Assembly: GCF_013041615.1 (NCBI RefSeq)
Contig: NZ_JABEPQ010000002.1
Coordinates: forward strand, 868,001 to 932,000
Direction: 5' to 3'
DNA length: 64,000 nt
Origin: Knoellia koreensis
GTDB taxonomy: Bacteria > Actinomycetota > Actinomycetes > Actinomycetales > Dermatophilaceae
Below, one piece after another: positions 4,258 through 60,419 of this stretch (its first letter is position 1; every line of letters starts with the position of its first letter). The notes under the pieces were generated by a model. The model was not told the DNA's origin, did no database searches, and saw only the letters and a list, made by a program, of their open reading frames with translations. Position numbers and translations under genes: made by a program.

Positions 4258-4319
4258 CGGGTATGCCGCCCGCCCGCGTCGGTGCCGGCCGGTCACCGTG
4301 GTGACCGGCCGGCATACCC
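4258..4319. terminator. Long perfect hairpin with an outer octamer pair
   Basis: The arms at 4283-4298 and 4299-4314 form a 15-bp perfect inverted repeat (TGCCGGCCGGTCACC) around a 2-base centre. An outer pair, GGGTATGCCG at 4259 and CGGCATACCC at 4310, is also inverted. It lies between the drrB stop and the mraY start, so it probably ends the drrAB transcript. There is no T-tract, as is common in high-GC actinobacteria. Confidence 0.65.
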
Positions 4320-6256: not shown

Positions 6257-6307
6257 CACGGGTATGCCGCGTGGTCACCCCCGCGGGGACCACGCGGCAT
6301 ACCCGTG
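6257..6307. terminator. 20-bp-arm perfect hairpin built from the iterated octamer
   Basis: Arms 6257-6276 and 6288-6307 are a perfect 20-bp inverted repeat, each containing the extended motif GGTATGCCGCGTGGTC or its complement. The loop is 11 bases. It lies just 3' of the MFS gene (stop at 6324, leftward) and before drrA, so it should end the MFS transcript. It is the longest of the octamer hairpins in the window. Confidence 0.75.
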
Positions 6308-8372: not shown

Positions 8373-8446
8373 CTGGCGAACTTTGGCCCAAAGTTCGCCA
8401 GGGCTTGGAACCTTCCCGTGCCCCACGAACTTTGGCCCAAAGTTCG
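8373..8446. repeat. E1 element, copy a: paired GAACTTTGG palindromes
   Basis: Two palindromes are separated by 24 bases. The first (8373-8401) is a perfect 29-base odd palindrome, with 14-base arms CTGGCGAACTTTGG and their complement around one C. The second (8426-8446) has perfect 10-base arms CGAACTTTGG around one C. The same two-palindrome arrangement recurs at 60351-60419. It sits between the convergent marR and NCS2 permease genes. Confidence 0.85.
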
Positions 8447-8486
8447 GTATGCCGCGTGGCCGGGTGACCCGGCCACCCGGCATACC
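8446..8486. terminator. Octamer-pair hairpin between convergent genes
   Basis: The arms are 8446-8464 and 8468-8486, complementary at 18 of 19 positions with a 3-base loop. Each arm begins with GGTATGCCG or its complement. It directly abuts E1 copy a and probably works as a bidirectional terminator for marR (+) and the permease (-). Confidence 0.65.
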
Positions 8487-10074: not shown

Positions 10075-10407
10075 GTGACCGAGTCGGAGCCGCCCGAGGC
10101 CGCCCGCGAGAGCGGTGTCGCCGACGAGGCCCGGTATGCCGCGGAGCGCGGCGCCGCGAGCGCGTCACCGTCGGGTCGCGCCGGCACCGGTGCCGAGCTC
10201 GAGCCGCTGGCCTGGAGCACGGGCCGGATCGTGCTCGGCGGCATCGCCGCCTGGGTCGTCGCGCTCGTCGTCACGCTGGTCGTGCCGGACCTGCACACCG
10301 GCGAACGGTCGTGGTGGCCGTGGTGCTGCGTCGCCGGGATCCTGCTCGGCTTCCTCGGCTACAGCTACGTGCGCCGCGGCCGCGGCAACGCCGCCGACGC
10401 CCACTGA
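10075..10407 (+). CDS. DUF2530 small membrane protein
   Basis: A 110-residue protein starting at a GTG that follows GAGGA at good spacing. The first 45 residues are charged and variable. Two hydrophobic segments follow (around residues 50-70 and 80-97), with the well-conserved block LEPLAWSTGRIVLGGIAAW and the HTGERSWWPW loop characteristic of DUF2530. The molecular role is unknown. It is divergent from the purine permease with only about 55 bases between the starts, a common actinobacterial pairing, so they may share a control region. A copy of hairpin element E2 lies 57 bases beyond the stop. Confidence 0.8.
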   Translation: MTESEPPEAARESGVADEARYAAERGAASASPSGRAGTGAELEPLAWSTGRIVLGGIAAWVVALVVTLVVPDLHTGERSWWPWCCVAGILLGFLGYSYVRRGRGNAADAH

Positions 10408-10463: not shown

Positions 10464-10534
10464 GCAAACCGGGGGTTGCGTGCATGAAACGGGGGTCATT
10501 TCCATCCGTTTCATGTCAGCAACCCCCGCTTTGC
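10464..10534. repeat. E2 hairpin element, copy a
   Basis: A 71-base interrupted hairpin. Outer stem GCAAA/TTTGC, middle stem CGGGGGTTGC (10470-10479) with its complement (10519-10528), and inner stem CATGAAACGG (10483-10492) with its complement (10506-10515) are all perfect. It ends 11 bases from the stop codon of the AbiEi-like gene. Copy b lies on the other side of that gene in the same orientation. Confidence 0.85.
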
Positions 10535-10545
10535 CAGCGTGCCGC

Positions 10546-11481
10546 TCACGCGGCGAGTCGCGACAAGGCGGCCCGGATCCGGCTGAGCAGAGTCGCTGGG
10601 TCGGCCAGTTCGTCCCAGGTGATGCGCACGACGGCATAGCCGAGCTCGCGGAGGCGGTCTTCACGTCGCTTCTCGGCGATGAGGACCTCCCTCCCATCCT
10701 CGCCGCCGTACTTGACCGCCCCGTCGAACTCGACGATCACCCGGCCGGCCACCAGGAAGTCGACCCGTCCCACGAGGTGCCCATCGACGTCCCGGATCGG
10801 CACCTGGCTGTCAAAGGGCAGCCCCAGCGCGGCAAGGATCAGCCGGGTGCGGCTCTCCCCCACTGACTCGCACTTCGGGTCGAGCGCCGCCACGGCGTTG
10901 CGCAGCCGTCGTTTGCCACGCAGGCTCGGCCCGAGCCTTTCGGCGGCCTCCTCCAGCTCCTCCACTGAGCAGGCGCCGCTCTGCAGGGCGGCATCTCCAG
11001 CGACGACACCGGCTGCGGTGCTGACTGACGAGGTGGTCACCACGGCATCGGGGATGCTCAGCACCCGCAAGCCGTCCAGCTCGACCTCGTCAACCAGTCC
11101 GCGCGTGGGCATCACGCGCAGGCCTGACACTGTCGTGCTCTCCTCGACATCTGCGGCCACCACAACCAGGTCCCGCGGGACGTGCCACAGAGGAAGTCCG
11201 TGCAGTGCCACAGCAGAGTGATGAGTTGCGTACTCCTTCGCGGTTCGGGAACGAAGGACCGCTTGCACCCGGAGGCGATACTGCTCATCGGATCCGGCTG
11301 CTGCCCACACGGTGCTGTCGACAAAGGCACCACGTCGAACTCGCACCAGCAGGCCGACCCTCACCCACTCACGGACGAACCTCGGGTCCACGTCGAGACG
11401 GATGAAGTCGCGGGCGGTGACGACCCCGGACTGAGCAGCCAGCACCGCGGCCACGGCGGAGTCAAGCATTGGGTCTGCCAT
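10546..11481 (-). CDS. AbiEi-like winged-helix protein with PD-(D/E)XK/DUF559-like C-terminus
   Basis: A 311-residue protein. The N-terminal 60 residues (AQSGVVTARDFIRLDVDPR and LVRVRRGAFVDSTVW) resemble the winged-helix antitoxin domain of type IV AbiEi proteins. The middle region has the ATHHSAVALHGLPLW block seen in that family. Residues from about 215 on resemble a small Vsr/DUF559 endonuclease fold (VDFLVAGRVIVEFDG, a lysine-rich helix, then LRELGYAVVRITWDEL). No AbiEii toxin gene is adjacent. The gene is bracketed by two nearly identical E2 hairpins, which is unusual. It may be a solitary regulator or nuclease, or a selfish cassette; the function is inference. Confidence 0.75.
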   Translation of the reverse strand: MADPMLDSAVAAVLAAQSGVVTARDFIRLDVDPRFVREWVRVGLLVRVRRGAFVDSTVWAAAGSDEQYRLRVQAVLRSRTAKEYATHHSAVALHGLPLWHVPRDLVVVAADVEESTTVSGLRVMPTRGLVDEVELDGLRVLSIPDAVVTTSSVSTAAGVVAGDAALQSGACSVEELEEAAERLGPSLRGKRRLRNAVAALDPKCESVGESRTRLILAALGLPFDSQVPIRDVDGHLVGRVDFLVAGRVIVEFDGAVKYGGEDGREVLIAEKRREDRLRELGYAVVRITWDELADPATLLSRIRAALSRLAA

Positions 11482-11573
11482 GGCTGGAGCGTGACGAGTG
11501 CACGCCCCGCCTGCATCAGCCGGATCGGTCGCCTGTGGACGAACTCTCGGCGGTGGCCGCCCTGTGGATGACG

Positions 11574-11646
11574 CGCAAAACGGGGGTTGCTGTCATGAAA
11601 CGGGGTGTATGGACGCCCGTTTCATGCCAGCAACCCCCGTATTGCG
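11574..11646. repeat. E2 hairpin element, copy b
   Basis: A 73-base hairpin of the same design as copy a. Outer stem CGCAA/TTGCG, middle stem CGGGGGTTGC (11581-11590) and inner stem CATGAAACGGG with its complement CCCGTTTCATG are present, with a shorter loop. Between copies the stems are nearly identical while loop and junction bases differ. It lies between the AbiEi-like gene start and the DUF3027 stop. Confidence 0.85.
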
Positions 11647-11658
11647 GGCGTGGCGCCG

Positions 11659-12408
11659 TCAGACGGGGTCGAAGGCCAGCTCGTCGACCAGGGGGTCGCC
11701 GGCCTCGACCAGCGACTCGGGTGCGGGCGCGTCCACCTCGGAGTGGGCGCCGCAGCCGTGGTCAAGGCTCACGACGCGACCGTCGGAGGGTGACCAGGCG
11801 TTGGCGCACACGCCGAAAAAAGACCTCAACGCCCCCGCCATCGGCAGGAAGTAGCCGCAGGTCGAGCACGGAGCCGGCGCCTTCTCGGCCACCTCGGAGT
11901 GCGGGCCGTTGTCGCCGTCGTACCACCGCTGGGCCGCGGCCTCGCGACCCTCCGCCGACAGCACGCGCGGCCTCCCGAGACCCAGCTCGAACTCAGCCAT
12001 CTCGTCGACGTCCTCGTCGCCCGTCGCCTCGAACCCGGGCTCGAGCAGCGGGTCGTCCTCCTTGTAGGGGAGTACGTCGCCGGCGCCGAGGTCACCCGGA
12101 GCCAGCCGGTCGGCATACGGCACCCAGGCGGGCGCGAGCAGCGCGCCGTCACCGGGCACGAGGTTGGTCTCGCAGATGGTCGCGACCTTGCCGCGCGGCA
12201 CGCGCGCCACGGTGACGGCCCACCGCCAGCCCGGGTAGGCCTTGGCCGTGCAGGCGAAGTAGTGCGTCCCCAGGCGCTCCTCGTCCATGGTCATGCCGAG
12301 GTGCTCGCCGACGGTGCCGGCCTCGGCAATCTCCTCGGCGGCACCGCGCGCGAGCTCGACCGCAGCCGCGAGGACGGCGTCGCTCTTGGCGGGCTTGGCG
12401 GCCGCCAT
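11659..12408 (-). CDS. DUF3027 domain-containing protein
   Basis: A roughly 249-residue conserved actinobacterial protein of unknown function. The N-terminal half contains the block LGTHYFACTAKAYPGWRWAV. The C-terminal half has paired cysteines in CSTCGYF and a further cysteine-histidine motif DHGCGAHSE, which suggests metal binding (inference). It starts at an ATG that overlaps the stop of the cold-shock gene (TGATG; a GTG one codon earlier is also possible), so the two are translationally coupled. That pairing is commonly conserved. No signal peptide or membrane segment is seen, so it should be cytoplasmic. Confidence 0.85.
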   Translation of the reverse strand: MAAAKPAKSDAVLAAAVELARGAAEEIAEAGTVGEHLGMTMDEERLGTHYFACTAKAYPGWRWAVTVARVPRGKVATICETNLVPGDGALLAPAWVPYADRLAPGDLGAGDVLPYKEDDPLLEPGFEATGDEDVDEMAEFELGLGRPRVLSAEGREAAAQRWYDGDNGPHSEVAEKAPAPCSTCGYFLPMAGALRSFFGVCANAWSPSDGRVVSLDHGCGAHSEVDAPAPESLVEAGDPLVDELAFDPV

Positions 12409-12803
12409 CACGGCTCGATCTGGTCGGCGAGGAACCGCAGGACCTGGGCGAGCTTCTTGCCGTGGTCCTTGTCCAGCCGGCGTCCGCGGCGCAGCGAGTT
12501 CGACGCGTTGTCGAGCAGCTTGATGGCGTCCTCGACCAGCGGCGCGAGGTCCTCCGGCGACTTGCGGCTCTGCTCGCGCTTGCCGGCGGCGACGCTCGGC
12601 GCGGGCTCGAGCAACGTCACCTGCAGCGCCTGCGTCCCCCGCCGCCCCTCGGCCACGCTGAACTCGACGCGGGTGCCGCCCTTGAGCGTCTGCACCCCGT
12701 CGGGGAGGGCGTTGGCGTGCAGGAACACGTCACCGCCGTCGTCGTCGGAGATGAAGCCGAAGCCCTTCTCCTGGTCGTACCACTTGACCTTGCCTGTGGG
12801 CAC
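12408..12803 (-). CDS. Cold-shock domain protein with C-terminal extension
   Basis: A 131-residue protein with an N-terminal cold-shock OB-fold. PTGKVKWYDQEKGFGFI carries RNP1 and DVFLHANAL carries RNP2, so it should bind single-stranded RNA or DNA. The C-terminal 60 residues are an Arg/Lys-rich extension (LLDNASNSLRRGRRLDKDHG) not found in the 67-residue CspA proteins. The GTG start was chosen over the longer open frame because AGGGA lies at good spacing before it. It is followed without a gap by DUF3027. Likely roles are RNA chaperoning or regulation at low temperature. Confidence 0.9.
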   Translation of the reverse strand: MPTGKVKWYDQEKGFGFISDDDGGDVFLHANALPDGVQTLKGGTRVEFSVAEGRRGTQALQVTLLEPAPSVAAGKREQSRKSPEDLAPLVEDAIKLLDNASNSLRRGRRLDKDHGKKLAQVLRFLADQIEP

Positions 12804-41985: not shown

Positions 41986-42027
41986 CGTCTGCGTGAACGG
42001 TTGCCATGGCGACCGTTCACGCAGACG
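41986..42027. repeat. 42-bp near-perfect palindrome
   Basis: The 42 bases read the same on both strands except at one pair. Arms begin CGTCTGCGTGAACGG and meet at a central CCATGG with no loop. It lies between the leftward PhoD-like gene (stop at 42070) and the ABC ATPase start. It may terminate phoD-like transcription, but its lack of a loop is more typical of a cruciform or a dimer-binding site. Confidence 0.8.
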
Positions 42028-60350: not shown

Positions 60351-60419
60351 CGAACTTTGGGCCAAAGTTCGCCAGTGCTGGGAACGTTTCAAGCACGAGC
60401 GAACTTTGGGTCAAAGTTC
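60351..60419. repeat. E1 element, copy b: paired GAACTTTGG palindromes
   Basis: The first palindrome (60351-60371) has perfect arms CGAACTTTGG around one G. The second (60401-60419) has GAACTTTGG with one mismatch. The spacer (GCCAGTGCTGGGAACGTTTC...) aligns with that of copy a at 8373-8446. Like copy a it sits between convergent genes (DUF389 and arsC). Confidence 0.85.

Follow-up and report, generated by a model that had tools for sequence, protein, structure and literature searches.

Matching dispersed palindromes accompany an AbiEi-Vsr-like nuclease gene family in Actinobacteria: a possible counterpart of RAYT/REPIN systems

A nuclease gene bracketed by two long palindromes lies in the 64-kb stretch of DNA analysed here (the window), and across the family to which this gene belongs, the association between nuclease gene and palindromes is firm. 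Each palindrome population is specific to its genome and matched to the resident nuclease gene; dispersed copies, sites with and without the element, and inverted states are all observed. The best explanation, to which we assign a probability of roughly 0.6, is a nuclease-palindrome system of Actinobacteria that is single-copy and chromosomal and that resembles RAYT/REPIN but employs an unrelated enzyme. We infer that the nuclease cleaves and disperses the palindromes, and this mechanism of spread appears reasonably probable.

The window locus and its protein

The gene and its two palindromes, termed E2, form a module of 1183 bp (Table 1). An earlier reading made from the DNA letters (the sequence-only reading) had described an AbiEi-like/nuclease gene bracketed by two E2 elements of 71-73 nt with near-identical stems and differing loops, in a 1.2-kb module whose stop codon lies only 11 nt from one hairpin, and all of this is borne out. 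In particular, the inner stem, CATGAAACGG-N13-CCGTTTCATG, is found at exactly two places in the 64-kb window even when three mismatches are allowed (0 expected from shuffles), and the loops of the two copies are unlike each other. The palindromes are contained in an 83-nt repeat that shows 78% identity between its two window copies; their arm complementarity is 86% and 94%, and strong folding is predicted for the pair. The immediate neighbours of the gene were assigned by Pfam as DUF2530, DUF3027, and a permease.

Table 1. Coordinates of the features discussed, within the window
Feature	Position	Strand	Basis or remark
Solo copy of the second palindrome family (GAACTTTGGNCCAAAGTTC twice), 68 nt	8378..8445	.	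Pattern search, 0 expected
DUF2530 gene, left neighbour defining the insertion site	10075..10407	+	Pfam; close to DUF3027 in element-free relatives
Left palindrome, E2 copy downstream of the gene	10464..10534	.	71 nt; 11 nt past the stop codon
Nuclease gene	10546..11481	-	311 aa
Vsr / EDxHD-homing-endonuclease-like nuclease half, residues 205-311	10549..10869	-	Alignment A1, PDB 3r3p, 3hrl, 1cw0
AbiEi-antitoxin-like half, residues 7-201: winged helix and second domain	10879..11463	-	Pfam, PADLOC, PDB 6y8q
Right palindrome, E2 copy upstream of the gene	11574..11646	.	73 nt; 92 nt ahead of the start codon
DUF3027 gene, right neighbour defining the insertion site	11659..12411	-	Pfam and comparison of relatives
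Another solo copy of the second palindrome family, 68 nt	60352..60419	.	Pattern search

In the 311-aa protein, Pfam recognised AbiEi_4 above the cut-off (E=6.6e-8) and DUF559 slightly under it (E=7.4e-4); at E<=1, the matches were solely AbiEi_4, DUF559, and MTES_1575. Among the 18 proteins of alignment A1, 17 match AbiEi_4 and 11 match DUF559 at E<=0.01. The AlphaFold model of the window protein, built with the 18-protein alignment, has a mean pLDDT of 93.1. When compared by VIA-align, residues 7-201 resemble the AbiEi antitoxin 6y8q (Z 10.5), and PADLOC likewise reports AbiEi over residues 15-186. Residues approx. 205-311 resemble the catalytic domain of the homing endonuclease I-Bth0305I (3r3p, Z 11.4), which we take to be of the EDxHD type, as well as NGO0050 (3hrl, Z 11.2) and Vsr (1cw0, Z 9.9, 26% identity). 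By Foldseek alone, 6y8q is the top hit (E 1.3e-5) and 3r3p the third (E 4.4e-3). Thus, profile search and structure prediction uphold the proposed union of an AbiEi-like winged helix with a DUF559/Vsr-like fold.

Within the nuclease half, amino acids D241, E251, D253, G254, K257, and Y258 are invariant in 18 of 18 proteins; we read them by the residue logic of PD-(D/E)XK nucleases, which presumably applies here. The strictly invariant columns of alignment A1 begin at D163 and fall nearly all within the nuclease half, the front half being the variable part. Homologues that are 56-61% identical and free of inner stops are found in six other genomes of the genus. Filing the protein as a defence system was considered and rejected: PADLOC gives AbiEi only, PHROGs gives one weak match (E 0.097), and NCBIfam gives none.

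Palindromes across the family and within genomes

Bracketing was assessed in a sample of actinobacterial loci, the best 80 of 543 confirmed, from which L076, L108, and L115 were dropped for short flanks. The upstream and downstream flanks match in 55 of the remaining 77 loci, compared with 1 of 339 neighbouring ORFs in the same test (Fisher p 2.5e-49, some of the 77 being homologues at one site and hence non-independent). The threshold was the 99th percentile of 1500 mismatched pairs (their top score was 47.5), and the control ORFs, like the gene contexts given below, come from a GC-frame heuristic gene caller, some of whose ORFs overlap palindromes (e.g., L001, L157, L158). In further relatives' loci, a set that partly overlaps the 77, the flanks match in 28 of 34 (without L029; L019 and L045 are 100% identical and have the same flanks). 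Within the best-80 sample, 22 of the 77 loci have no matched pair, and short ORFs occur in 5 of these 22 compared with 2 of the 55 matched loci (p 0.018).

In the window genome, five of the six family members, the window gene included, pass the flank-match threshold, and three members (L008, L009, L011) have clear two-sided palindromes that differ in sequence. The palindrome family that brackets paralogue L009, on contig 1, is the second family of Table 1. The flanks of L009 carry 1-2 mismatches per half, which explains why the exact pattern of this family matches 0 of 306 loci. Further strong palindromes are present in the window at 6257-6307, 8446-8486, 41986-42027, and 4283-4314 and possibly represent more families.

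Matches to the outer stem are dispersed in some of the 11 genomes of the genus: 17 in the window genome (G000), 25 in G001, 18 in G002, 9 in G006, and 5 in G003, with 2 in G008, 1 in G007, and 0 in G004, G005, G009, and G010. A reversed-pattern control gave 0 in all 11 genomes. The strict pattern misses the window's own left E2 copy and one other, and the inner stem differs in 3 of the 17 matches in the window genome. This palindrome type flanks the gene in the five genomes with at least five copies; in the six genomes with 0-2 copies, the gene has other flanks or there is no close homologue. G008 has its two matches although it lacks a close homologue.

Where homologues occupy one site in five genomes, the palindromes match within each genome: G000, G001, and G006 have a common outer stem and differing inner stems, and G007 and G010 share another type. 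The strict pattern of the latter type finds 1 and 2 copies in these two genomes, one of the three not being a gene flank, and 0 in the other nine. In G006, a gene-flank copy and a solo copy approx. 254 kb apart are identical over 58 nt, and their surroundings differ by eye. G001 also contains another dispersed palindrome type, with the inner stem CATGAAACGG as in E2, that is unlike the flanks of its gene and may be an orphan family.

The same relationship was observed in Kribbella. The palindrome of Kribbella pratensis, predicted from the flanks of its gene, is present in 12 copies in its own genome, two of which are those flanks, and in 0 copies in five further Kribbella genomes, which have other members of the family. 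In one of these five, L105 has flanks that belong to a related but diverged type, and diverged relatives of the palindrome were retrieved by BLAST from several other Kribbella genomes. The palindromes are thus dispersed in the genomes of their own genes, weakly so for the G007/G010 type, and not scattered without association to the protein family, which would have spoken against the sequence-only reading.

Solo copies were further compared with the equivalent sites of relatives. Of the ten other genomes, eight carry no long palindrome at the first solo E2 site, and two carry a different one. At the second, the palindrome of G001 has the same outer stem, and common descent may thus account for this copy; in the remaining genomes, the site has another palindrome, a short hairpin, or neither. 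In Kribbella, a solo copy of approx. 97 nt is missing from G060, where the flanking sequences are 90-92% identical. A few bases next to the copy are missing from G060 as well, and thus its state could reflect a deletion; however, gain is favoured by other relatives, in which the spot contains a short sequence or a different palindrome. In other Kribbella species, a different palindrome was seen at the same intergenic spot (L278-L280), suggesting that spots may be reused.

The gene contexts of 19 of 23 copies were scored, leaving out L155 and L162 (gene flanks), L158 (unclear), and L014 (same site as L160). According to the heuristic caller, eight lie between convergent, eight between tandem, and three between divergent genes; G008, a genome with no clear cognate gene, supplied two of the 19. 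Some scored copies sit just past a stop codon.

The copies look like sharp-edged units of about 60-97 nt, and many E2 copies end, by eye, in CGCAA...TTGCG. Flanks of dispersed copies in G000, G002, and G006 (L219-L227, L239-L276) appear to be rich in C on the left side and in G on the right side, a possible target preference. The internal architecture was analysed in 53 arms from 39 loci, picked for matched flanks and a strong palindrome. A short motif occurs twice per arm, 19 nt apart in 21 of 52 arms and 20 nt apart in 14 of 50, compared with approx. 1.1 each in shuffled arms; other spacings were found in 0-3 arms. In E2, the motif is AAACGG and the spacing is 20 nt. A palindrome with such arms thus consists of two motif copies facing two inverted copies. 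The palindrome sequence varies between distant family members, and close homologues are often of a common type: palindromes are similar in 67% of protein pairs at 60-70% identity and in 1-7% of pairs under 50%. The correlation of protein identity with palindrome similarity over all pairs was set aside as strong evidence and used as a guide only, since the Spearman coefficient is only 0.22 and the flanks may include shared neighbouring sequence.

Because the outer stem is fixed by the search pattern, base-pair covariation among dispersed copies was assessed at unconstrained positions only. Covariation is significant in G002 (p=0.0025; 17/500 shuffles for cells paired) and not significant in G000 (p=0.72) or G006 (p=0.78), and it was therefore not accepted as proof of a hairpin form. 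In G000 and G006, conservation is stronger for symmetric motifs than for free base pairing. With covariation significant in only one of three genomes, the palindrome may act as a symmetric binding site in duplex DNA instead of as an extruded hairpin; the functional form may be either, and extrusion is not claimed. A role of the hairpin as RNA was rejected, as Rfam yields only two microRNA-family matches, far below the gathering scores, in the right palindrome.

The conservation of symmetric motifs in G000 and G006 would also suit a main rival explanation, in which the protein is an AbiEi-type transcription regulator with an incidental nuclease half, the palindromes serve as its operators, the upstream one for self-repression and the downstream one as a terminator, and the dispersed copies make up its regulon. 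AbiEi antitoxins are described as binding inverted repeats in their own promoters (PMC7319586, as far as consulted), and many of the matched loci have a palindrome ahead of the start codon (not counted). However, congeners mostly have no palindrome, or others, at the two solo sites, and 8 of the 19 scored solo copies lie between convergent genes, where a promoter is not expected. Sharp-edged units of approx. 60-97 nt and nuclease residues that are invariant in 18 aligned proteins also argue against a regulator and its regulon, and we consider this explanation unlikely.

Sites of the gene and its mobility

The gene adjoins DUF3027, between DUF3027 and DUF2530, in 5 of 11 genomes (G000, G001, G006, G007, G010). 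In G009, G004, G003, and G002, the aligned DUF2530 and DUF3027 neighbours are just 11-124 bp apart. At the same site, G008 and G005 (L130, L133) have approx. 1.2 kb of other sequence with no match to the protein, and in G017, which belongs to another genus, a palindrome is found in the DUF2530-DUF3027 interval. Sites without the gene thus exist, and a site without the single palindrome has been seen. The gene position varies, in contrast to the fixed position, with no empty sites and E2 serving only as terminators, that had been considered as an opposing outcome.

Flanks were compared for 133 protein pairs with at least 52% identity, a set in which the L019/L045 duplicate and some short-flanked loci are counted. 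Both flanks are common to 57 pairs and neither flank to 67, and the remaining 9 show a partial or inverted match. Inversion of the gene at a conserved site was verified for three locus pairs (L085/L099, L093/L120, L111/L112), in which the gene sequences align on the same strand and the sequences around them on the opposite strand.

An ordinary transposon or homing element, with the palindromes as its ends or target and with gene and flanks moving together, would account for the sites that lack the gene, for the close homologues at different sites (the 67 of 133 pairs at or above 52% identity that share no flank), and for the resemblance to a homing endonuclease. However, both flanks are kept in 57 of the 133 pairs, and the window genome has no near-identical gene copies, its best paralogue being only 42% identical. 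Moreover, no match was found in 72,556 plasmid or 50,697 phage records, no viral contig was confirmed, and no target duplication was clear by eye at the sites compared, where the relatives are too diverged for a firm reading. With paralogues at most 42% identical in the window genome and no plasmid, phage, or viral relatives, the system does not look like an ordinary insertion sequence, and we regard a transposon or homing element as improbable.

Far less probable still, and already disfavoured, is the explanation that the palindromes are merely transcription terminators or insulators whose likeness to the gene's flanks is coincidental: the scored copies are mostly intergenic (heuristic caller), some right after a stop codon, and the window E2 pair folds strongly, but the palindrome sequence goes with the resident nuclease gene, congeners that lack this gene having few copies or none, divergent genes surround 3 of the 19 scored copies, neighbouring ORFs are without such pairs (1 of 339), and a terminator scan finds 0 at the E2 pair, for which reason a pure terminator role of the hairpin was rejected.

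Relation to known systems and proposed mechanism

RAYT/REP systems, or REPtrons, are described, in the parts of two reports considered here (PMC6006769, PMC3116915), as generally having one full-length gene per repeat type, which is often flanked by the repeat, while the repeat is dispersed between genes. According to the same sources, RAYT genes are single copy, co-evolution with the repeat has been suggested, and REPtrons are not thought to transpose as a unit. The family described here is alike in that a single-copy gene is flanked by its own repeat, which is dispersed between genes (contexts by the heuristic caller). However, its enzyme is an AbiEi-like protein joined to a Vsr-like nuclease, whereas RAYT is an HUH/Y1 enzyme, and its element, unlike REP/REPIN, is a palindrome of approx. 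60-100 nt with a motif repeated at 19-20 nt. PF01797 (Y1/HUH) was found in 0 of 11 genomes of the genus and in 5 of 14 control genomes; therefore, the system is not a RAYT, and RAYT-driven mobility was rejected. The sequence-only reading had likened the locus to RAYT/REP with a PD-(D/E)XK-type protein replacing the HUH enzyme, and this likeness is supported by the matched flanks (55 of 77, from the best 80 of 543, vs 1 of 339), by dispersal within the own genome, and by empty sites.

The two halves of the protein also have separate relatives. The nuclease half shares its fold with Vsr (Z 9.9 to 1cw0) and the presumed EDxHD homing endonucleases (I-Bth0305I, Z 11.4 to 3r3p); unlike these, the window protein has an AbiEi-like front half and a cognate palindrome family. 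The first approx. 200 residues have the fold of AbiEi antitoxins of the type IV AbiE toxin-antitoxin system (6y8q, Z 10.5) and match AbiEi profiles; unlike these antitoxins, the window protein is fused to a nuclease. An adjacent AbiEii (DUF1814) toxin gene characterises such systems; the genes on either side of the window gene match DUF2530 and DUF3027 in Pfam. AbiEi antitoxins are reported to bind 23-bp inverted repeats at their own promoters; of two homologues tested, neither bound the other's repeats, and a third, Rv1044, bound those of AbiEi (PMC7319586, in the portion consulted). A Caulobacter VsrA protein, which shares the DUF559 nuclease domain, has been proposed to be a mismatch-repair nuclease linked to a cytosine methylase; unlike in the present family, palindromes are not mentioned in the available portion of its description (PMC12907096). 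No earlier description of the nuclease-palindrome association was found in searches of the open-access PMC literature.

Under the preferred RAYT/REPIN-like explanation, the AbiEi-like half would recognise the repeated motif in its own palindrome, as fold precedent and the palindrome architecture suggest; by analogy with AbiEi antitoxins and the inverted repeats of their promoters, the likely motif reader is the front half. The Vsr/homing-endonuclease-like half would nick or cut at or beside the palindrome. Since a PD-(D/E)XK nuclease is, to our knowledge, not expected to rejoin DNA unaided, a repair step would be required. Host repair or recombination would copy the palindrome into new intergenic sites and would also keep the gene's two flanking copies alike. 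The outcome, which is observed, is a palindrome population specific to each genome and matched to its nuclease gene, together with a gene that occasionally turns around between its flanks and rarely moves. In its fullest form, this account holds that REPIN-like dispersed palindromes evolved a second time and that an AbiEi-Vsr fusion recognises its own palindrome by the motif repeated at 19-20 nt, copies it by break and repair, homogenises the flanks, and sometimes flips the gene, several specificities coexisting per genome; taken as a whole, it stands at slightly better than even odds.

These findings suggest an unrecognised enzyme-and-repeat partnership in soil actinobacteria, like REP elements but built on an unrelated enzyme. 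As each gene predicts its own target sequence, this reading is directly testable, and the family comprises many natural nuclease/target-site pairs of differing sequence for the study of DNA recognition. If the reading is true, the RAYT/REPIN way of life, a small palindrome population kept up by one chromosomal enzyme on its own, would have arisen independently with an unrelated enzyme. It would also account for a group of AbiEi/DUF559 proteins of unknown role and for some of the palindromic intergenic DNA in high-GC actinobacteria.
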